Source: Methylocystis echinoides (GTDB lineage: Bacteria > Pseudomonadota > Alphaproteobacteria > Rhizobiales > Beijerinckiaceae). From it: a stretch of 64,000 nucleotides of DNA. The stretch is taken from contig NZ_CP156084.1 of NCBI RefSeq assembly GCF_040687965.1, forward strand, positions 3,100,501 to 3,164,500, read 5' to 3'. The position numbers and the translations under genes were made by a program. Each line of letters opens with the position of its first letter. Position 1 is the first letter of the stretch. The notes below the pieces were generated by a model, which was not told where the DNA came from, made no database searches, and was given only the letters and a program-made list of their open reading frames with translations. Of this stretch, positions 7,963 to 34,720 are shown piece after piece.

Positions 7963-9894
7963 TTACACCGGGTTTGGCGACAACCCGCCGACATCCGGCT
8001 CTGGCTTGTGTCCGGTGGTCGGCACCGCGGAGCCGCGCGGCGGCTGCGGGGTCGTGGCGCTGGTGTCCTCGCGCACGGGGCGCTTGCCCTGCAGCAGCCC
8101 GCGCATCTCCTCGCCGGTCAGGGTCTCGAACTCCAGCAGGCCATTGGCCAGCGTGTCGAGCTGCGCCCGCTTCTCGGTCAGGATCTGCCTGGCCTTGTCA
8201 TAGGCCTCCTGAACCAGACGCCGCACCTCCGCGTCGATCGTCTGCTGCGTCGCCTCCGAGAGGGTCTGCTGGCGGCCGAGCGAATAGCCGAGGAACTGCT
8301 CCTGCTGCGGCTCGGCGTAGGCCACGGTCCCGAGCTTGTCCGAGAAGCCAAGCTGCGTGATCATCGCCCGCGCCACCCGCGTGCACTGCTGGATGTCGGA
8401 GGCCGCCCCAGACGTCACCTTGTCGTGGCCGAAGATCAGCTCCTCCGCCACGCGGCCGCCCATGGCGATCGCCAGCATCGCGGTGAGCTGCTCATAGGTC
8501 TGCGACACCTGATCGCGCTCCGGAAGGCCCTGCACCATGCCCAGCGCGCGGCCGCGCGGGATGATCGTCGCCTTGTGGATCGGCATCGCCCCCGGCACCG
8601 TGAGCTGCACCAGCGCGTGGCCGCCCTCGTGATAGGCCGTGAGCTTCTTCTCCTCCTCGGTCATGCTGAGCGTGCGGCGTTCCGCGCCCATCATGATCTT
8701 GTCGCGGGCGTCCTCGAACTCCTGGTTCGTCACGATCCGCTTCGAGCGCCGCGCCGCCAGCAGCGCCGCCTCGTTGACGAGGTTCATCAGATCCGCGCCC
8801 GAGAAGCCCGGCGTGCCGCGCGCCACGACCTTCAAGTCCACGTCCGGCGCCAGCGGCACCTTGCGGGCGTGCACCTTCAGGATCTTCTCGCGGCCGATGA
8901 AGTCCGGGTTCGGCACCTGGATCTGGCGGTCGAAGCGGCCCGGACGCATCAGCGCCGGATCGAGCACGTCCGGACGGTTGGTCGCGGCGATGAGGATGAT
9001 GCCTTCATTCGCCTCGAAGCCATCCATCTCGACGAGCAGCTGGTTCAAGGTCTGCTCGCGCTCGTCGTTGCCGCCGCCGAGCCCGGCGCCGCGGTGACGG
9101 CCCACCGCGTCGATCTCGTCGACGAAGATGATGCAGGGCGCGTTCTTCTTGGCCTGGTCGAACATGTCGCGCACGCGGCTCGCGCCGACGCCCACGAACA
9201 TTTCCACGAAGTCCGAACCCGAAATCGAGAAGAACGGCACGCCCGCTTCGCCGGCGATGGCGCGGGCCAGCAGCGTCTTACCCGTGCCGGGCGGGCCGAC
9301 CAGCAGCACGCCGCGCGGAATCCGACCGCCCAAACGCTGGAACTTGCCAGGATCGCGCAAAAACTCCACGATCTCCTGCAAATCCTCCTTGGCCTCGTCA
9401 ACCCCCGCAACGTCCTCGAAAGTGACGCGGCCTTGGGTCTCTGTGAGGAGTTTGGCCTTGGATTTGCCGAAGCCCATGGCCCGGCCGGCCCCTCCCTGCA
9501 TCTGGCGCGACAGGAAGATCCACACGCCAAGGAAGGCGACGAGCGGCAAGGCGTTGAGCAGCAGCGTCATCAGCCAGCTCGAGCCGTCGCTGAGCGGCTT
9601 CGCGCTGATCGAGACGTTGTGGGCCTGCAGACGCGGGATGAGGTTCGCGTCATTCGGGATGTAGGTCGTAAACGGGCGATTGTCATTGAAGTGGCCCACG
9701 ACCTCATTGCCCGCGATGGTCACGTCATGAACGCGCCCCTGGTCAATCTGCGTGAGCAGCTCGCTGAACGAAATGTCCCGGATCGGCGTCCGCTGGCCCG
9801 GTTGCTGGAACAGCATGACAAGCGCCACCACCAGCAGGCCAATAATGGCCCACAGGGCGAGGTTCCTGAAGTTTGCGTTCATTGCATAATCCAT
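7963..9894 (-). CDS. ftsH: ATP-dependent zinc metalloprotease FtsH, copy 1
   Basis: Membrane-anchored AAA+ protease that degrades misassembled membrane proteins and regulatory proteins such as RpoH and LpxC. 643 residues: two N-terminal membrane segments (about 10-30 and 105-125) flank a periplasmic domain; then Walker A GPPGTGKT, Walker B IIFVDEID, the SRH ([20 protein letters not shown]) and the zinc motif HEGGH. An internal ATG at 9882 giving MNANFRN, the usual FtsH N-terminus, is an alternative start; neither has a strong Shine-Dalgarno. Downstream of tilS in the conserved cpoB-tilS-ftsH order, so this is the ancestral copy. From VTFEDVAG to the last few residues it is identical in protein to the copy at 31782. 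Confidence 0.97.
7986..9420 (-). repeat. Inverted long repeat, copy A (within ftsH 1)
   Basis: 1,435-bp tract nearly identical, without length change, to 32247-33681 in opposite orientation. It begins at TTCGAGGACGTTGCGG and ends at GATGTCGGCG. The encoded residues are identical across it; the differences I saw on partial comparison are scattered silent ones. Outside the tract the two genes diverge clearly. Confidence 0.92.
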
Positions 9895-25101: not shown

Positions 25102-25523
25102 ATCCGCGCGACGCGCGGTCAGCGACATATGCCAAAGCGCCATTCTCTTGGCAAGCAGCGGCCGCCGCGCCGGCAAAATTCTTCGCTACGACACTGTCAA
25201 AGCAGTCATCGCCCTCCTGTGACTGGCGAGCTACACGATTTCGGCTCGTGCAGGCTAGGAATAAATTGTCAAGCTAACGCTCGTTAACCAAATTAATACT
25301 TAAGCTTAGCTGTAATCCCGTGACTTTTACGCAACAGCACAATCCCAATGTGTGGTTAAGCTTACGCCTGATCGATGGATTCCGTTGACTGTGCAGGGGG
25401 CGTGCTGATGGATAGGGCCATGGCTGAGCGGGGAAAGAATCGTTTCTCCGGCCAGGCCTGGCCAAGAAGTTGGGAGCGTGCGCTTGGGCGCGGTTCCAAC
25501 AATATTTGTTCAAAGAGGCTGGA
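25102..25523. other. 422-bp intergenic region before the tandem omp genes
   Basis: Noticeably AT-richer than its surroundings around 25255-25345 (for example TTAACCAAATTAATACTTAAGC). It presumably holds the promoter of the 25524 barrel gene. A 79-codon minus frame (25274-25513) looks like chance. No copy of the tRNA 3' end was found here. Confidence 0.5.
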
Positions 25524-26498
25524 ATGAAGAAAATCGCTCTTTCCGTCGCCGCGCTCGCGCTGTCCGCTGGGGCCGCGCTTGCCGCCGATCTTCCCTACCG
25601 CAAGGGCCCGCCGGTCCTGCCGCCGCCGCCGCCGCCGCCGCCCATGTGGACCGGCTTCTACGTCGGTCTGAACGCTGGCGGCACCTGGGCCAACAGCAAC
25701 CAGCAGGTCGTGGCCGTCGGCCCGGTCGGCGCCGGTCCGTTCTGGTCGCCCGGCATCCTGAACCTCGAGCAGGCCAACTATCTCGGCGCCTTCACCCTGG
25801 CGGCCTCCGGCTCCGGCTTCAACTCCGGCAACAACGGCGGCTTCATCGGCGGCGGCCAGATCGGCTACAACTGGCAGTTCTACAACAGCTTCGTTGTGGG
25901 CCTCGAGGCCGACATCCAGGGCATCGCCGGCACCAACGCCTCGCGCACCTTCGCGACCGGCGCCGCGGTTCCTGGCGTGGTCGGCACGGCCCTCGGCGAC
26001 AGCTTCGCGGGCATTCACTCGGTGCGCGGCAGCCTCGACTATCTGGGCACGGTGCGCGGCCGCCTCGGCTGGCTGTTCACGCCCACCCTGCTGGTCTACG
26101 GCACGGGCGGTCTCGCTTACGGCGGCGTGACGCTGAACTATGCGTCGTCGGTCGTTCCGGGCGGCATCACCGGCCTGTTCATGGGCCCGAGCTTCGGCGG
26201 CGTGAACTTCTCCAATACGCAGGTCGGCTGGACGGCCGGCGGCGGTCTCGAGTGGATGTTCTGGCCGAACTGGTCCGCCAAGGTCGAGTATCTGTATTAT
26301 GACCTCGGCACCGTGCGCCAGAACTTCGCGCTGGGCTCGACCGACAGCACGCTGCAGGCTCTCGGCTTCGCCGTTCCCGCCGACTCGGCGATCTTCGGCG
26401 GCCAGGTTCGCGCCCGCATCAACGGCAATATCGTTCGCGCCGGCGTGAACTATCACTTCAACTGGGGCGCTCCCGCTCCGGTCGTCGCGAAGTATTGA
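25524..26498 (+). CDS. Outer-membrane beta-barrel protein, tandem copy 1
   Basis: 324 residues: signal peptide MKKIALSVAALALSAGAALA, a short RKGPPVLP linker with a run of eight prolines, then a porin-family barrel (WTGFYVGLNAGG, IGYNWQFYNSFVVGLEADI, VRGRLGWLFTPTLLVYGTGG, GGGLEWMFWPNWSAKVEYLYYDLG) ending in the aromatic-rich YHFNWGAPAPVVAKY. The ATG at 25524 starts the signal peptide; the frame open to 25470 is not used. Heavily biased, optimised codons suggest high expression. A strong terminator follows. Paralogue immediately downstream. Confidence 0.92.
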   Translation: MKKIALSVAALALSAGAALAADLPYRKGPPVLPPPPPPPPMWTGFYVGLNAGGTWANSNQQVVAVGPVGAGPFWSPGILNLEQANYLGAFTLAASGSGFNSGNNGGFIGGGQIGYNWQFYNSFVVGLEADIQGIAGTNASRTFATGAAVPGVVGTALGDSFAGIHSVRGSLDYLGTVRGRLGWLFTPTLLVYGTGGLAYGGVTLNYASSVVPGGITGLFMGPSFGGVNFSNTQVGWTAGGGLEWMFWPNWSAKVEYLYYDLGTVRQNFALGSTDSTLQALGFAVPADSAIFGGQVRARINGNIVRAGVNYHFNWGAPAPVVAKY

Positions 26499-26527
26499 TC
26501 TAACCTTTCACTTCAAGGCAAGCACAG

Positions 26528-26558
26528 GAGCCCGGCCGCAAGGCCGGGCTCTTTTTTT
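26528..26558 (+). terminator. Rho-independent terminator after omp copy 1
   Basis: GAGCCCGGCC-GCAA-GGCCGGGCTC followed by seven T residues. Confidence 0.95.
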
Positions 26559-26749
26559 GTGTCCTTCGCGCCACAGTCGACCGAAAAGCGGCGGCGGTAA
26601 ATGGCAAAGGTCAAGATAGTCTTTGACTGAAACGGCCAAGGTCGAGCAAAAAGAGGGGGAGGCGCACGGAGCGATTGTCGCGACTGGGCCGAGGCTACTT
26701 CAGAGCGCGGCGCGATTGGTTGCGTCGTCTAGCCGACGAAGAGGATGAA

Positions 26750-27700
26750 ATGAAAAAGATTGCGCTTTCTTTTGCCGCTTTGGCGCTGACGGCGGGCTCC
26801 GCCCTCGCCGCTGATCTTCCTTCGCGCAAGGGCCCGCCGGTCCTTCCTCCGCCGCCCCCGCCGCCCCCGCTGTGGACCGGCTTCTACGTCGGTCTGAACG
26901 CTGGCGGCACCTGGGCCAATAGCAACGGCCAGTATCTGGCGGTGGCCCCGGTCGGCGCGGATGCGACATGGGGGAACGCCGGCGCCCAGCAGAGCCAGTA
27001 TCTGGCCGCTTTCTCCTCCGCGGCCTCCGCCTCGGTCGTCAACTCCGGCGCCAACGGCGGCTTCATCGGCGGTGGTCAGATCGGCTACAACTGGCAGTTC
27101 TACAACAGCTTCGTTGTGGGTCTCGAAGCCGACATCCAGGGCCTCGCCGGCAACAGCGGAGCCCGCTCGGTGACCAACGCCGTTTCGGTTGGCTCCTTCT
27201 TGCAGCGGCGCACCGACGACGGCTTCGCCTCGATCACCAGCGGGCGCGCCAGCCTCGATTACCTCGGCACGGTCCGCGGTCGCCTCGGTTGGCTCTTTAC
27301 GCCGACCCTGCTTGTCTACGGCACGGGCGGTCTCGCCTATGGCGGCGTCAATCTCAACACGGCCACGACCGTTTCGGCAATTGGCTCCAGCCCTTGGGCC
27401 GTGGCTCAGCCGGTTTCGTTCGGGGGCGTGAACTTCTCGAATACGCAGGTCGGCTGGGCGGCTGGCGGCGGCCTCGAGTGGCTGTTCTGGCCGAACTGGT
27501 CCGCGAAGGTCGAATATCTTTATTACGATCTCGGCACGGTGACGCAGAACTTCGCCATCGCGACGTCGGATCCGGCCACCGGCGGCAGCGCCGTCTTCGG
27601 CGGCCAGGTTCGTGGCCGCATCAACGGCAATATCGTCCGCGCCGGCCTGAACTATCACTTCAACTGGGGCGCCCCGGCCCCGGTCGTCGCGAAATACTGA
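26750..27700 (+). CDS. Outer-membrane beta-barrel protein, tandem copy 2
   Basis: 316 residues, paralogue of the preceding gene. Same signal peptide plan (MKKIALSFAALALTAGSALA), same proline linker, and long blocks identical at DNA level (the region coding GFYVGLNAGGTWANS and the block coding GYNWQFYNSFVVGLE). The middle loops differ (for example ATWGNAGAQQSQYLAAFSSA versus FWSPGILNLEQANYLGAFTL), as expected for surface-exposed loops. The ATG at 26750 starts the signal peptide. It has its own terminator, so the two genes are probably separate transcription units. Confidence 0.92.
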   Translation: MKKIALSFAALALTAGSALAADLPSRKGPPVLPPPPPPPPLWTGFYVGLNAGGTWANSNGQYLAVAPVGADATWGNAGAQQSQYLAAFSSAASASVVNSGANGGFIGGGQIGYNWQFYNSFVVGLEADIQGLAGNSGARSVTNAVSVGSFLQRRTDDGFASITSGRASLDYLGTVRGRLGWLFTPTLLVYGTGGLAYGGVNLNTATTVSAIGSSPWAVAQPVSFGGVNFSNTQVGWAAGGGLEWLFWPNWSAKVEYLYYDLGTVTQNFAIATSDPATGGSAVFGGQVRGRINGNIVRAGLNYHFNWGAPAPVVAKY

Positions 27701-27889: not shown

Positions 27890-28666
27890 ATGGAAAGTTC
27901 CGTGCACCGCGATGATTTTTTCGACCTGATCGATCGCCTCGCCGCTGCGGACCGGATCGAGGCTGCGTCCGAGATCATCCGAGATTTTACCGGAGCGTGG
28001 GGCTTGCATAACGTGGCCTATGCTGCGCTCAACCTGCCGGCTCCTGGCGCGCCGCGTCCGCTGTTGTCGGTGACCTATTCGGCGGAGTGGCAGAAACACT
28101 ATGCCCAGAGCGGCTATGTCGACCTCGACCCGATCGTCCGCTCCGGACTGGGCGGGATCCTGCCGATCGACTGGGCGCAGATCGACCGCAGCGACCCGAT
28201 CATCCGCAAATTCTTCGGCGAGGCCCAGGAACTCGATGTCGGCGCGAATGGCCTCTCCATTCCGGTGCGTGGCCGCCTGGGCGAATTTGCGCTTTTTTCC
28301 GTCACCAGCAACGAACCGGATCCCGAATGGCGCGCCATGAAGGACGAATTAATGCGGGACCTGATGATTCTCGCATTCAATTTCCACGCGGCGACCTTGC
28401 GCGCGTGCGGCGTCGCGGATGAGACAGGCGTCCATCTTCCCCCCCGCGAGGCCAGTTGCCTGCGATGGAAAGCGCTGGGCAAGACGGACGACGACATCGG
28501 TCGGATTCTCGGAATCAGCTCGCACACTGTCCGATTCCACCTGGAATCCGCGCGTTCGAGGTTGAACACCGCCAATACGACGCACACGGTCGCCAAGGCT
28601 CTCGCGCTCGGCTTGATCAACATGTCCTACGAGCCGACGCATCTCTTCCCCAAAAAACGCCAGTAA
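27890..28666 (+). CDS. LuxR-type quorum-sensing transcription regulator
   Basis: 258 residues. The N-terminal autoinducer-binding domain (about 10-165) keeps the acyl-homoserine-lactone pocket residues seen in LuxR/TraR: W67 and Y71 (EWQKHY), D80-P81 (DLDP), W95 (DW). The C-terminal LuxR helix-turn-helix spans about 183-245 (LPPREASCLRWKALGKTDDD, IGRILGISSHTVRFHLESAR). On binding its signal it would dimerise and bind lux-box palindromes; two such palindromes begin at its own stop codon, between it and luxI. A TTGACA at 27809-27814 may be part of its promoter, but I see no good -10. Confidence 0.93.
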   Translation: MESSVHRDDFFDLIDRLAAADRIEAASEIIRDFTGAWGLHNVAYAALNLPAPGAPRPLLSVTYSAEWQKHYAQSGYVDLDPIVRSGLGGILPIDWAQIDRSDPIIRKFFGEAQELDVGANGLSIPVRGRLGEFALFSVTSNEPDPEWRAMKDELMRDLMILAFNFHAATLRACGVADETGVHLPPREASCLRWKALGKTDDDIGRILGISSHTVRFHLESARSRLNTANTTHTVAKALALGLINMSYEPTHLFPKKRQ

Positions 28667-28685
28667 CCTCCTATTTTTGGGAGGT
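28666..28685. promoter_or_regulatory. lux-box-like palindrome 1
   Basis: 20 bp, ACCTCCTATTTTTGGGAGGT, with perfect ACCTCC/GGAGGT arms. It matches the length and the ACCT...AGGT ends of classical lux boxes. It starts on the last base of the luxR stop codon. Confidence 0.75.
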
Positions 28686-28708
28686 CGAATTGCCTCCCGC
28701 AAGGGCAC

Positions 28709-28728
28709 ACCTCCCATTTTCGGGAGGT
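28709..28728. promoter_or_regulatory. lux-box-like palindrome 2
   Basis: 20 bp, ACCTCCCATTTTCGGGAGGT, with perfect 7-bp arms. It is identical to palindrome 1 at 18 of 20 positions, centred 43 bp (about four helical turns) from it, and ends 64 bp before the luxI ATG. A possible -10 (CATAAT, 28758-28763) follows. Confidence 0.8.
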
Positions 28729-28792
28729 GATAACCCACTGACATTGCTTCAATTTCTCATAATCGTAAAGCTTACGATGAGGGGATTAAGCA

Positions 28793-29443
28793 ATGATTAA
28801 AATGATACCGGGCGAATGGCGCGACCGCTATCCGAGGCTCATCGACGAAATGCACCGGCTGCGCCGCAGCGTATTCCACGAGCGGTTGAAATGGCAGGTG
28901 AGCGTCATCAACCGGTGGGAGATCGACGGCTATGACGCGCTCGATCCGCTCTATGTCCTGTCGCTCGACGAACAGGAGCATGTGATTGGCGGACTTCGGC
29001 TGCTGCCGACCACTGGCTTCAACATGCTCAACGACACGTTTCCGGAGCTTTTGCCGGACGGCGCGCGAATCGCGAGCCCGCTGATCTGGGAATCGAGCCG
29101 TTTCACGGTGCGCATGACGGGCGACACGCGGGTGGATGTCCCGACGATCAGCCGCGCCACGGCCGAACTGGGGCTGGCGCTCAACGAAATCGGCAAGGCC
29201 GCGTCGCTTTCGCATATCGTCACGGTTTATGACCGCGTCATGCACCGGATGCTGATGCGTTGCGGTTGCGCGGGCGATCCGCTCGGTCCGCCGCAGATGA
29301 TCGGCGGCGTCGAAACCTATGCCGTTCTTTATGAAGTTGGCCCTGGGTGGGACGCGCGCGTGCGCAACCTCGCCGGAGTAGCGAATGTCGCGCTGGAGCC
29401 GGACGCCATCGGCGCGATGCGGGCGCGGCTGCTGGCCTCGTGA
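28793..29443 (+). CDS. LuxI-type acyl-homoserine-lactone synthase
   Basis: 216 residues. Makes an N-acyl-homoserine lactone from S-adenosylmethionine and an acyl donor. Family-invariant residues are present at canonical numbers: R24, F28, W34, D45, D48, R69, F83, E100, R103 (RRSVFHERLKW, EIDGYDALDP, GGLRLLP, WESSRF). Starts at the ATG 28793, 8 nt after AGGGG. Controlled presumably by the two upstream lux boxes, giving a positive feedback loop with the adjacent LuxR. The acyl chain made cannot be read from sequence. Confidence 0.95.
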   Translation: MIKMIPGEWRDRYPRLIDEMHRLRRSVFHERLKWQVSVINRWEIDGYDALDPLYVLSLDEQEHVIGGLRLLPTTGFNMLNDTFPELLPDGARIASPLIWESSRFTVRMTGDTRVDVPTISRATAELGLALNEIGKAASLSHIVTVYDRVMHRMLMRCGCAGDPLGPPQMIGGVETYAVLYEVGPGWDARVRNLAGVANVALEPDAIGAMRARLLAS

Positions 29444-30144: not shown

Positions 30145-31599
30145 TCAGGCAATCGCCTGCAGCCGTTCGCGTAAATCGCCAATTTCCCTTTCCGCCGTGA
30201 CTTGCTTGGTCACGTCATACTGGACGCCGAGAAAGTAAATCAGCGCTCCCTGCTCGTCGAACAGCGGCGTGATGTTGAGTTTGTTGTAGAACAACTCGCC
30301 GCTCTTGCGATAATTGCGCAGAATGACCTCGACCGGCTGGCGGTTGCGAATCGCTTCGCGCAGACGCTGCAGGCCTTCCTGGTCTCGATCCTCGCCCTGC
30401 AGGAACCGACAGTTCCGGCCGAGAATTTCATTTGGCGCGTAGCCGGTGATCTCCTGAAACGGCTTGTTGGCGTAGACGATCGGGGCGTCCTCGAGATCGG
30501 GGTCGGTCAGCGTGACGCCATTGACGCAGGTGTCGAAGATGGTCGTCAGGATTTCGGGAATAAGCTCCGATTCCTTGCGGACCGAGAAAATCTGGGCCTT
30601 GTCTTGCGCTTTGGCCCGCGCCCAGACGCGATAGGCGGAGGGCGCCATGCCGGCGTAGCGACGGAAGGCGCGGCGAAAGCTCGCCTCGTCGATAAACCCC
30701 GCGCTGGCCGCCAATTCTTTCACCGGCTTGGCGCTGGTCTCGAGCAGCGTGCGCGCTGTTTCGACGCGAACGCGATCGATGAAGCTCTTCGGCGATTCGC
30801 CACAGGCGAGCTTGAGCCTGCGATGCAGGGTGCGTTCGGAGGTGGAAAGCGCGCGCGCCAGACCCTGAGCGTTGAAGTCCGCGTCCGCCTGCCGGACGAT
30901 CCGCTCCGCCTCCGCCAAAAAGGCGTCCGCGCTTCCGGAAACCGCGGCAGGGCCATAGGCGCCGCCGTGGCCGCCCTTGGCGGGCGTCGTGTCGCCGAGC
31001 GTGAAATCGGCGGCGATGCGCCCCGCCTCCGCGCCGCAGAGCGCCTTGAGGGCGTAGAGGCCGACGTCGATCCAGGACATCGGCCCGGCCGCAGTGACGA
31101 CGCGACGGTCGTCGATCAATCGCGCGCCCCAGGCCAGGTCGGCGCGGGGGTAGCGTTTCTTGAGGTCCTCATTGTGCCACCAGCTGGTCGTGCAACGGCG
31201 TCCGTCGAGCAGGCCCGCTTCGCCGAGGAGGAACACGCCGGAGCCGCATCCGCCGACCAGCGCGCCGCGGGAATGATGTCGGCGAAGCCACGCCGCCGCG
31301 CCGGCCAAGGGCGCCATGTCCGGTACCTCGCCTTCCGGGCCCGGCGCGAAACTTGGAATAATAATGGCGTCGCAGACGGCGATTTCCTCGAAAGAGGTCT
31401 CCACCTCGTGACGCGCTCCCGCGCCGTCCTGAATCGGGCGGCCCCCGACGCCGGCGGTCACCGTGCAAAAATCGGCGCCCGGGGAATCGTCCGGCAAAGC
31501 GGCGCTAATCCTGCGCTGGGCCAGCGAAAACAAGTCGGATAGGCCTATGAAAGCGGAGCCGAGACAGCCGTCCAGGCCCGCAATGACGATCTTGAGCAT
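30145..31599 (-). CDS. DJ-1/PfpI-AraC-LOV fusion transcription regulator (predicted blue-light sensor)
   Basis: 484 residues with three modules. About 1-190 is a GlxA-like class-I glutamine-amidotransferase/DJ-1 domain, cysteine 118 at the nucleophile elbow (LVGGCGSG). About 230-335 is an AraC double helix-turn-helix (ALSTSERTLHRRLKLACGES, AASAGFIDEASFRRAFRRYA). About 345-470 is a PAS domain with the LOV photoactive motif GRNCRFLQ (Cys397), flavin contacts N429/N439 (NYRKSGELFYN), and the signalling glutamine Q460 (GVQYDVT), so it should bind flavin and form a light-driven cysteinyl adduct. GlxA-type AraC regulators normally lack a LOV domain. Divergent from ftsH copy 2 across 182 bp. The 5' SD is weak (GGTGGGA). 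Confidence 0.92.
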   Translation of the reverse strand: MLKIVIAGLDGCLGSAFIGLSDLFSLAQRRISAALPDDSPGADFCTVTAGVGGRPIQDGAGARHEVETSFEEIAVCDAIIIPSFAPGPEGEVPDMAPLAGAAAWLRRHHSRGALVGGCGSGVFLLGEAGLLDGRRCTTSWWHNEDLKKRYPRADLAWGARLIDDRRVVTAAGPMSWIDVGLYALKALCGAEAGRIAADFTLGDTTPAKGGHGGAYGPAAVSGSADAFLAEAERIVRQADADFNAQGLARALSTSERTLHRRLKLACGESPKSFIDRVRVETARTLLETSAKPVKELAASAGFIDEASFRRAFRRYAGMAPSAYRVWARAKAQDKAQIFSVRKESELIPEILTTIFDTCVNGVTLTDPDLEDAPIVYANKPFQEITGYAPNEILGRNCRFLQGEDRDQEGLQRLREAIRNRQPVEVILRNYRKSGELFYNKLNITPLFDEQGALIYFLGVQYDVTKQVTAEREIGDLRERLQAIA

Positions 31600-31621
31600 G
31601 CCATCCCACCGATTTTGTTTT

Positions 31622-31698
31622 TGGCGAATTATGGACTGGATTTGGCTATTTCGCCATCCTGACCTAGGATGTCGCCAACCTCATGTTGAGTATGGCGA
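31622..31698. promoter_or_regulatory. Phased TGGCGA sites in the araC-lov/ftsH divergent region
   Basis: Four copies of TGGCGA or its complement at 31622-31627 (+), 31651-31656 (-), 31672-31677 (-) and 31693-31698 (+). The last three are centred exactly 21 bp apart (two helical turns). They lie between the divergent regulator and ftsH copy 2, and would suit AraC-type tandem binding. A possible ftsH -10 (TTATAC, 31726-31731) lies downstream without a good -35, consistent with an activated promoter. Confidence 0.4.
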
Positions 31699-31781: not shown

Positions 31782-33707
31782 ATGAAGGCGAATTGGAAGA
31801 AATATTTGCCTTGGGTCGTCTTCGTCGCCGTCGCGGTGGTTCTGTTTGCGATGTTCCAGCATCAGCAGTCCCGCACGCCAGCGCGCGAAATCACCTTCAG
31901 CGAGCTGCTGGTGCAGATCGATGAAGGCCGCGTGCATGACGTCACGATCGCGGGCAATGAAATCACCGGACACTTCAACGACAACCGCTCGTTCACGACC
32001 TATGCGCCCAACGATCCGTCGCTGGTGCAGAAGCTCGAGGCGAAGAAGGTGCAGATCAGCGCGCGGCCGGGCGGCGAGAATCCGGGCTGGCTGTCGACTC
32101 TGCTCGTGAACGGTCTGCCGCTGCTGCTGTTCATCGGCGTCTGGATCTATATGGCGCGTCAAATGCAGGGCGGGGCCGGCGGCCGCGCCATGGGCTTTGG
32201 CAAGTCGAAGGCGAAGCTTCTCACCGAAATGGCGGGGAAGGTCACCTTCGAGGACGTTGCGGGGGTTGACGAGGCGAAGGAGGATTTGCAGGAGATCGTG
32301 GAGTTTTTGCGCGATCCGGGCAAGTTCCAGCGTTTGGGCGGTCGGATTCCGCGCGGCGTGCTGCTGGTCGGCCCGCCCGGCACGGGTAAGACGCTGCTGG
32401 CGCGCGCCATCGCCGGCGAAGCGGGCGTGCCGTTCTTCTCGATCTCGGGTTCGGACTTCGTGGAAATGTTCGTGGGCGTCGGCGCGAGCCGCGTGCGCGA
32501 CATGTTCGACCAGGCCAAGAAGAACGCGCCCTGCATCATCTTCGTCGACGAGATCGACGCGGTGGGCCGTCACCGCGGCGCCGGTCTCGGCGGCGGCAAC
32601 GACGAGCGCGAGCAGACCTTGAACCAGCTGCTCGTCGAGATGGACGGCTTCGAGGCGAATGAAGGCATCATCCTCATCGCCGCGACCAACCGTCCGGACG
32701 TGCTCGATCCGGCGCTGATGCGGCCGGGCCGCTTCGACCGCCAGATCCAGGTGCCGAACCCGGACTTCATCGGCCGCGAGAAGATCCTGAAGGTGCACGC
32801 CCGCAAGGTGCCGCTGGCGCCGGACGTGGACTTGAAGGTCGTGGCGCGCGGCACGCCGGGCTTCTCGGGCGCGGATCTGATGAACCTCGTCAACGAGGCG
32901 GCGCTGCTGGCGGCGCGGCGCTCGAAGCGGATCGTGACGAACCAGGAGTTCGAGGACGCCCGCGACAAGATCATGATGGGCGCGGAACGCCGCACGCTCA
33001 GCATGACCGAGGAGGAGAAGAAGCTCACGGCCTATCACGAGGGCGGGCACGCGCTGGTGCAGCTCACCGTGCCGGGGGCGATGCCGATCCACAAGGCGAC
33101 GATCATCCCGCGCGGCCGCGCGCTGGGCATGGTGCAGGGCCTTCCGGAGCGCGATCAGGTGTCGCAGACCTATGAGCAGCTCACCGCGATGCTGGCGATC
33201 GCCATGGGCGGCCGCGTGGCGGAGGAGCTGATCTTCGGCCACGACAAGGTGACGTCTGGGGCGGCCTCCGACATCCAGCAGTGCACGCGGGTGGCGCGGG
33301 CGATGATCACGCAGCTTGGCTTCTCGGACAAGCTCGGGACCGTGGCCTACGCCGAACCGCAGCAGGAGCAGTTCCTCGGCTATTCGCTCGGCCGCCAGCA
33401 GACCCTCTCGGAGGCGACGCAGCAGACGATCGACGCGGAGGTGCGGCGTCTGGTTCAGGAGGCCTATGACAAGGCCAGGCAAATCCTGACCGAGAAGCGG
33501 GCGCAGCTCGACACGCTGGCCAATGGCCTGCTGGAGTTCGAGACCCTGACCGGCGAGGAGATGCGCGGGCTGCTGCAGGGCAAGCGCCCCGTGCGCGAGG
33601 ACACCAGCGCCACGACCCCGCAGCCGCCGCGCGGCTCCGCGGTGCCGACCACCGGACACAAGCCAGAGCCCGATGTCGGCGACGGGGTCGCGCCCCAGCC
33701 CGTCTAA
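31782..33707 (+). CDS. ftsH: ATP-dependent zinc metalloprotease FtsH, copy 2
   Basis: 641 residues. The ATG at 31782 has GGGAGG 5 nt upstream; the open frame to 31683 is not needed. N-terminal helix ([15 protein letters not shown]), a periplasmic domain clearly different from copy 1, and a second helix ([17 protein letters not shown]) precede the AAA+ and zinc-protease parts ([13 protein letters not shown]), which are residue-for-residue identical to copy 1 from VTFEDVAG up to EPDVG. So the two proteases differ only in the membrane/periplasmic part and the last few residues. Divergent from the LOV regulator, upstream of pmoC but separated from it by a terminator. Confidence 0.96.
32247..33681 (+). 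repeat. Inverted long repeat, copy B (within ftsH 2)
   Basis: 1,435 bp matching 7986-9420 without gaps in the opposite orientation. The sharp left boundary falls inside the linker before the AAA+ domain; the right boundary lies 26 bp before the gene's end. Confidence 0.92.
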
Positions 33708-33730
33708 AGCGGCGCGCCGCTAACCGAAAA

Positions 33731-33756
33731 GGCCCGGTTCACGCCGGGCCTTTTTT
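33731..33756 (+). terminator. Rho-independent terminator after ftsH copy 2
   Basis: GGCCCGG-TTCACG-CCGGGCC followed by six T residues. It separates ftsH from pmoC. Confidence 0.93.
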
Positions 33757-33952
33757 ATTTGCATTCAACTGTCTCACCCCCGAGCCCGGGTTGATGTTGC
33801 GTCGCAAAATCAATCGATTGCGGCGGCCAGGGCATGGCGGTTTTTGGCATAAGATTGGCGACAAAGTCACTGTTGTCCTGCACAGCAGAAAGCAAGATGA
33901 GCCAGCTTCGAGGGAATAGCCTCGAGAGCTTCCAATAGGAGGAATTTGGAAC

Positions 33953-34720
33953 ATGGCTTCGACGACGAGCGCAGCTGCTGGCGCAGCTGCTGAGGTACAA
34001 ATAGTCGATCTTCGCGGAATGTGGATCGGCCTTGCGGTCCTCAACATCTTCTATCTGATCGTGCGCATTTACGAGCAGGTCTACGGCTGGCGCGCTGGCC
34101 TGGATTCGTTCGCGCCGGAGTTCCAGACCTACTGGATGTCGATCCTTTGGACCGAGATCCCGCTGGAGCTGGTCTCTGGTCTGGGCCTTGCGGGCTATCT
34201 CTGGAAGACCCGCGACCGCAACGTCGACGCGGTGACGCCGCGCGAAGAGATGCGCCGCCTGGTGGTTCTGGTTCAGTGGCTTGTCGTTTACGGCATCGCC
34301 ATTTACTGGGGCGCGTCGTTCTTCACGGAGCAGGACGGCACCTGGCACATGACGGTGATTCGCGACACGGACTTCACGCCGTCGCACATCATCGAGTTCT
34401 ACATGAGCTATCCGATCTATTCGGTGATCGCGGTTGGCGCGTTCTTCTATGCGAAGACCCGCATTCCGTATTTTGCTCATGGCTACTCGCTGGCGTTCCT
34501 GATCGTCGCCATCGGCCCGTTCATGATCATCCCGAACGTTGGCCTGAACGAGTGGGGCCACACCTTCTGGTTCATGGAAGAGCTGTTCGTCGCTCCGCTG
34601 CACTGGGGCTTCGTGTTCTTCGGCTGGATGGCTCTCGGCGTCTTCGGCGTCGTGCTGCAGATCCTGATGCGCGTTCATGCGCTGCTCGGCAAGGAAGGCG
34701 TCGCCCTTCTGACCGAGTAA
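33953..34720 (+). CDS. pmoC: Particulate methane monooxygenase subunit C, stand-alone copy
   Basis: 255 residues, full length for a type II methanotroph PmoC. Integral membrane subunit holding the copper sites now thought important for methane oxidation. D128/H132/H145 (spacing 4 and 13) match the Asp-His-His site of the crystal structures. N199/H203/H217 match the CuD Asn-His-His site. So it is not a decayed copy. pmoA and pmoB are absent on both sides; orphan pmoC genes are known in Methylocystis and Methylosinus in addition to pmoCAB operons. Strong AGGAGG 10 nt before the ATG. The ftsH terminator upstream implies its own promoter in 33757-33952; I find no convincing one. Confidence 0.97.
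   Translation: MASTTSAAAGAAAEVQIVDLRGMWIGLAVLNIFYLIVRIYEQVYGWRAGLDSFAPEFQTYWMSILWTEIPLELVSGLGLAGYLWKTRDRNVDAVTPREEMRRLVVLVQWLVVYGIAIYWGASFFTEQDGTWHMTVIRDTDFTPSHIIEFYMSYPIYSVIAVGAFFYAKTRIPYFAHGYSLAFLIVAIGPFMIIPNVGLNEWGHTFWFMEELFVAPLHWGFVFFGWMALGVFGVVLQILMRVHALLGKEGVALLTE

Follow-up and report, generated by a model that had tools for sequence, protein, structure and literature searches.

LOV photosensors in one-component DNA-binding proteins are represented by EL222, in which an N-terminal LOV domain is joined to a LuxR-type helix–turn–helix (HTH). In the GlxA/FtrA-type AraC regulators, a DJ-1_PfpI domain is followed by an AraC HTH. The two designs meet in the closest described system, that of El-Arab, Pudasaini and Zoltowski (2015, PLoS One, PMC4416707), whose main text describes a Methylocystis LOV transcription factor composed of an amidotransferase domain, an AraC HTH and a LOV domain, along with short LOV proteins. 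The full-length factor, McLOVn-TF, was insoluble; its LOV part (residues 337–490, from Methylocystis Rockwell) was dimeric and bound flavin, and under blue light its 450-nm band bleached in favour of a 390-nm species, the time constant of recovery being 130 s. The terms ftsH, pmoC, methane, operon, promoter and target gene do not occur in the main text of that paper, which gives no target genes for the LOV-AraC factor. Separately, Dam et al. (2013, PMC3794950) noted ftsH paired with a stand-alone pmoC in Methylocystis SC2 and Rockwell, and speculated that the pair screens the insertion of properly folded particulate methane monooxygenase (pMMO); we saw no regulator of the pair named there, and the main text contains neither 'LOV' nor 'blue light'.

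The locus that we analyzed brings these systems side by side. It lies in a 64,000-nucleotide stretch of the Methylocystis echinoides genome (the window), and its central gene, here called LOV-TF, is laid out as follows:

30145..31599, minus strand: LOV-TF, a 484-aa fusion of a DJ-1/PfpI-like domain, an AraC HTH and a LOV domain (Pfam, PDB matches, homologues)
31051..31476, minus strand: DJ-1/PfpI-like domain, residues 42–183, with Gly119 (31243–31245) replacing the elbow Cys
30628..30861, minus strand: AraC-type HTH, residues 247–324 (Pfam, alignment)
30160..30558, minus strand: LOV domain with its N-cap, residues 348–480, including P348, D356, C358, T363, C397, N429, N439 and Q460

The LOV-TF reading frame starts with ATG and runs for 484 codons with zero internal stops. 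Pfam matches fall along it in the order DJ-1_PfpI (residues 42–183, 7.9e-12), HTH_18 (residues 247–324, 1.8e-23) and PAS_9 (residues 361–465, 2.2e-22), so the three-domain fusion proposed in the first-pass annotation of this DNA stands. The frame joining the AraC and LOV parts is also uninterrupted in 20 other genomes of the genus, at 63–86% identity, which marks it as genuine rather than a frameshift artefact. LOV proteins head the list of PDB sequence matches for the C-terminal part (3sw1, 1.3e-32; 2pr5, 6.3e-32), and the NCBIfam YtvA-type LOV model matches with a score under its cut-off. Across the DJ-1_PfpI and HTH parts the best NCBIfam match is FtrA, and within the HTH 49 of 78 residues are invariant among 21 homologues. 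LOV-TF thus shares the first two domains of the GlxA/FtrA-type regulators and their order, but differs in its added LOV domain, in the Gly at the elbow and in an FtrA score (138) far under the cut-off (425). Compared with EL222, it carries its LOV domain at the C-terminal end, behind a DJ-1-like domain and an AraC HTH. A structure model of LOV-TF, built from 4 sequences, was discarded (pLDDT 41, pTM 0.27).

The photoactive Cys within GxNCRFLQ, the two flavin-contact Asn and the signalling Gln are all found in LOV-TF. As the first-pass annotation had it, they are Cys397, Asn429, Asn439 and Gln460, and their invariance in 21/21 homologues (the window protein counted) bears out its claim of a complete LOV domain. 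McLOVn-TF comes from the same genus and has the same domain order and a similar length (the published construct ends at residue 490, compared with 484 aa here), and the two are likened by the LOV residues that are described rather than by full sequence. These residues match at a constant offset of 336: P12, D20, the N-cap Cys, T27, C61 and Q124 of McLOVr correspond to P348, D356, C358, T363, C397 and Q460 of LOV-TF, with the number of the McLOVr N-cap Cys deduced from the published range 21–24 (PMC4416707). We consider the window protein to be of the same kind as McLOVn-TF, and the single LOV-TF group found in the genus (see below) supports orthology. The annotation had also implied that the architecture is novel, and a light-sensing AraC factor new for a methanotroph; both had been reported for Methylocystis in 2015, and the suggested flavin and adduct assay had in effect been performed on the LOV domain of McLOVn-TF (PMC4416707). 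We regard blue-light sensing and DNA binding by LOV-TF as very probable.

Searching for the three-domain architecture, as had been suggested, recovered full-length LOV-TF in 21 of 39 genomes of the genus; one further genome, G178, has it split over two contigs and enters the co-occurrence count and the comparisons of LOV parts, but is left out of the 21. Four named records encode it (three Methylocystis and one Hyphomicrobiales bacterium, 72–85% identity). A scan of genome contigs, which reaches close relatives only because its query consisted of six short peptides from a single sequence, returned 22 loci: 4 encode LOV-TF (one cut by a contig end), and the other 18 carry short LOVs (Methylococcaceae, Nitrosomonas, Accumulibacter and others) or LOVs in different multidomain proteins. 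Beyond the genus, no full-length LOV-TF was seen in 149 family genomes (E 1e-30, 10 candidates scored per genome), 397 family genomes (E 1e-45, 4 candidates) or 397 order genomes (E 1e-40, 4 candidates), sets that contain genus members and in which a LOV-TF could have been missed because few candidates per genome were scored. Both domain trees gather the fusions into a single group with an SH-aLRT of 98: all 22 LOV-TF rows among 62 LOV domains, and all 21 among 57 DJ-1/HTH parts, where the group lies beside 31 LOV-less relatives from the genus; both are quick trees without bootstrap, with some forks open. The simplest reading of these groupings is a single fusion event.

The DJ-1/PfpI-like domain has changed along with the fusion. 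At the column that we take to be the nucleophile elbow of the DJ-1/PfpI fold, all 21 LOV fusions have Gly119, whereas all 36 LOV-less relatives have Cys; the elbow Cys of catalytic DJ-1/PfpI proteins is therefore absent from LOV-TF. Cys118, which the first-pass annotation had put forward as the sensor residue, was rejected in that role: it lies one residue before the family Cys and, while kept in 19 of 21 fusions, is Ala in a side branch (L102, L103). The idea of two working sensors converging on one HTH is doubtful, since the elbow Cys is Gly in every fusion examined. A LOV domain that replaced an older sensor would fit better than two working sensors, and it is possible that the DJ-1-like domain binds a ligand despite the missing Cys.

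The genes around LOV-TF, and a hairpin between two of them, are:

31782..33707, plus strand: ftsH2 (AAA and peptidase M41), divergent from LOV-TF (Pfam, context)
33729..33756, plus strand: terminator-like GC-rich hairpin and T-run 3′ of ftsH2 (12/13 aligned intergenic regions, absent from L175)
33953..34720, plus strand: stand-alone pmoC (Pfam AmoC, 5.9e-109)
27890..28666, plus strand: luxR-type regulator (Pfam, context)
28793..29443, plus strand: luxI-type autoinducer synthase (Pfam, context)

Pfam confirmed the four neighbours named in the first-pass annotation, LuxR, LuxI, FtsH and PmoC. The window holds a second ftsH at about 7966–9882, 90% identical. An ftsH2 orthologue is divergent from LOV-TF in 20/20 other loci fetched. 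Eleven of these stop within ftsH2 and are uninformative for pmoC; in all nine that extend far enough pmoC lies downstream of ftsH2, in one (L086) ∼5 kb away. The luxRI pair adjoins LOV-TF in 15 of the 20 loci and is missing in five. The annotation had suggested light control of all these neighbours; conserved context and operator-like repeats make ftsH2 and pmoC likely targets of LOV-TF. What links luxRI to LOV-TF is adjacency.

Several features of the neighbourhood are recorded here in their own right. The luxRI genes (window 27890–29443, L092–L101) fall into two sets within the genus, one ∼81–95% identical and the other 40–51%; in the loci of the latter kind LOV-TF is still ∼66–69% identical and ftsH2 86–94%, and it is possible that a quorum-sensing pair was swapped at one site beside LOV-TF. 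At window 25470–27700, 5′ of luxR, lie two similar tandem ORFs, outer-membrane beta-barrel-like by eye, and ORFs resembling them occur near 16 of 20 other LOV-TF loci. Several genus genomes (L176–L181) have an extra cassette in which a LOV-less GlxA regulator is accompanied by pmoC and by a third ftsH, ∼83% identical to ftsH2; the cassettes of G017, G150 and G152 sit on contigs of 83–121 kb that may be plasmids.

The intergenic regions at ftsH2 and pmoC contain three predicted elements:

31620..31651, plus strand: predicted operator, a 21-bp-spaced direct repeat TTTGGCGAATT / TTTGGCTATTT (TGGC-N17-TGGC in 21/21 loci)
31642..31670, plus strand: possible weak promoter toward ftsH2, TTGGCT-N17-TAGGAT, whose −35 overlaps the second half-site (alignment reading)
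33834..33859, plus strand: second predicted operator, TGGC-N17-TGGC, 5′ of pmoC and 3′ of the terminator-like hairpin (9/9 aligned LOV-TF loci)

The LOV-TF/ftsH2 intergenic region is 182 bp long in the window, and both TTTGGCGAATT and TTTGGCTATTT, spaced 21 bp, fall within a conserved block with a mean column identity of 0.88 over 51 positions, compared with 0.62 for the remaining 137 positions of the alignment. A count by script found TGGC-N17-TGGC at ftsH2 in 21/21 LOV-TF loci, which come from one genus and, being kin, are not 21 independent observations. A longer form of this pattern occurs once in the window where none is expected; the short form occurs 8 times against 3.1 expected, with 3 of the 8 falling in the ftsH2 and pmoC intergenic regions, one of these on the minus strand. 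That minus-strand match (window 31653–31677) overlaps the ftsH2 promoter region and is absent from the other 20 LOV-TF loci. At pmoC, the TGGC-N17-TGGC itself spans 33835–33859; the alignment there leaves out L086, where pmoC is distant.

In the araI1–I2 sites of AraC, direct half-sites are likewise spaced 21 bp, with one overlapping the target −35. The repeat and its spacing are present here in 21/21 loci; the possible promoter is too weak for a consensus scan: a strict sigma-70 scan found no promoter in this region, with TTGGCT-N17-TAGGAT scoring under the cut-off. Such a sub-threshold sequence resembles what an activator-dependent promoter might look like. On the opposite strand, CATAAT at 31628–31633, by the core of the first half-site, could be the −10 of LOV-TF itself.

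The LOV-less relatives provide a comparison for the repeat. Upstream regions were taken from 33 of 36 of them (the outgroup rows L163–L165 were left out), and 17 of the 33 contain the repeat when read on the strand that does not encode the regulator; 1000 mononucleotide shuffles gave a mean of 0.145 such regions and at most 2. In one clade it is present in 15/16 regions, and all 16 regulators are divergent from pmoC; in another it is present in 0/15, where six regulators are followed on their own strand by pmoC and nine have no pmoC within ∼500 bp. Since two outgroup regulators (L012, L162) carry the repeat facing an unrelated ABM-family ORF, it appears to track the regulator rather than pmoC, and it therefore looks like the regulator's operator. 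Repeat-bearing outgroup GlxA regulators facing an ABM-domain ORF (L012:941–1369, L104:1009–1326) also hint at an older target. Similarity of the HTH helices to LOV-TF does not discriminate, being nearly equal in the repeat-lacking and repeat-bearing clades. Prediction of a regulon by genome scan was abandoned as insufficiently specific because the repeat is too short: it gave 26 loose matches against 3 for a reversed-pattern control, and 14 of the 26 were scored within ORFs, one of which (between a LOV-less relative and pmoC) counted as inside only through an upstream GTG start.

Taken together, we regard it as moderately probable that LOV-TF is a one-component, blue-light-dependent regulator of the GlxA/AraC type that controls the FtsH–PmoC cassette through the 21-bp repeats. 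Blue light would form the Cys397–flavin adduct, by analogy with the adduct shown for the McLOVn-TF LOV domain, and the LOV dimer would pass the signal to the HTH immediately N-terminal to it. Conservation suggests that the HTH binds the 21-bp-spaced TGGC direct repeats; binding at the second half-site, which overlaps the ftsH2 −35, would activate ftsH2, while binding at the first, which overlaps the LOV-TF start region, would cause autorepression as in AraC, and the second repeat is placed where it could act on pmoC. The output would be a membrane protease and a spare PmoC subunit, both supplied under the control of light, for quality control or repair of pMMO. That light inhibition of methanotrophs is disputed in the literature counts against this reading. 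As to its history, a LOV-less GlxA regulator would have acquired a short-LOV domain once, and the DJ-1-like domain would have lost the family elbow Cys in the LOV-TF line.

A bolder form of this proposal can be drawn by analogy with the FtsH-based repair of photosystem II. It holds that blue light runs a dedicated pMMO repair cassette as the methanotroph counterpart of that process, with the LOV-AraC factor switching on the second FtsH and the stand-alone PmoC through the 21-bp repeats, and that the light sensor was fused to an older type of regulator, which elsewhere in the genus faces pmoC and which in the fusion subsequently lost the conserved Cys of its original sensor domain. We offer it tentatively and, in its full extent, consider it rather unlikely.

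Among the alternatives, the one that survives best is that LOV-TF works mainly by competition, with light-dependent heterodimers between LOV-TF and short LOV proteins setting its activity, which is quite conceivable without being probable. El-Arab et al. propose competitive LOV dimers on the model of fungal VVD and White Collar, and report that both LOV types, that of McLOVn-TF and the short one, are dimeric in vitro, though we saw no heterodimer reported there (PMC4416707). A short LOV, 61% identical, is present in the window's own genome, and within the genus short LOVs occur in 17 of 22 LOV-TF genomes compared with 5 of the 17 that do not have LOV-TF (Fisher p 0.004, a value that ignores kinship and completeness). 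However, the remaining 5 of the 22 show none at E 1e-40, so a short LOV may not be obligatory, and competition of this kind is compatible with control through the operators rather than opposed to it. The short LOV of the window's genome (L184:4942–7494, ∼2.81 Mb) adjoins ORFs with a molybdopterin oxidoreductase domain and a cytochrome b561 domain, which we take to be an MsrPQ-like pair.

A second alternative, which we judge unlikely, is that the 21-bp repeats serve the LOV-less relatives or another regulator and that the targets of LOV-TF lie elsewhere, luxRI being one example. In its favour, and against our main reading, the repeat is intact in three genomes that lack an intact LOV-TF: at ftsH2 in G151, which has a LOV-TF fragment only and keeps the pmoC repeat as well, at ftsH2 in G175, and in G089, which has no LOV-TF genome-wide and carries the repeat at one ftsH (L172, 85% identical), beside which we found no regulator of the LOV-TF/GlxA family. 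A LOV-less relative is present in G175 and G089, which keep the repeat without LOV-TF, so these relatives may share the repeat sites; none was found in G151 at E 1e-40. The adjacency of luxRI in 15/20 loci also points this way, and its absence from the other five points against. Against this alternative, the ftsH2 repeat stands next to LOV-TF in all 21 LOV-TF loci, and among 12 other ftsH upstream regions 11 are without it, the exception being that of G089. Furthermore, G135, G152 and G166 have lost LOV-TF from the locus, in what may be a single event; their ftsH2 repeat is broken although a LOV-less relative is retained, and the pmoC repeat is broken too in the two of these loci that can be read there (L169, L170). 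The ftsH and pmoC regions of G149, a genome that at E 1e-40 shows no LOV-TF and no LOV-less relative, have no repeat.

Least likely, and in our view quite improbable, is that the LOV domain reports oxidation state or oxygen through its flavin and the N-cap Cys358 rather than light: Cys358 belongs to an N-cap class for which El-Arab et al. draw a link to oxidative-stress sensing, it does not vary among 22 LOV fusions and 40 short LOVs, and oxidative damage would suit FtsH, but Cys397 and Gln460 are equally invariant in the same set and a Methylocystis LOV domain forms the blue-light adduct (PMC4416707).

We therefore return to LOV-TF as a probable light-dependent regulator of ftsH2 and pmoC. 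As far as the literature searched goes, what is new here is a LOV-AraC factor apparently tied to an FtsH–PmoC cassette by an operator-like repeat, together with its likely single fusion origin and the lost elbow Cys. Where the LOV domain was gained, the older domain is without the Cys conserved in its family, which looks like the replacement of one sensor by another. Part of the literature reports that light suppresses methane oxidation in lakes, a disputed observation; for that question, and for that of which genes a LOV-AraC factor targets, the predicted operators and the cassette supply exact DNA sites and genes.
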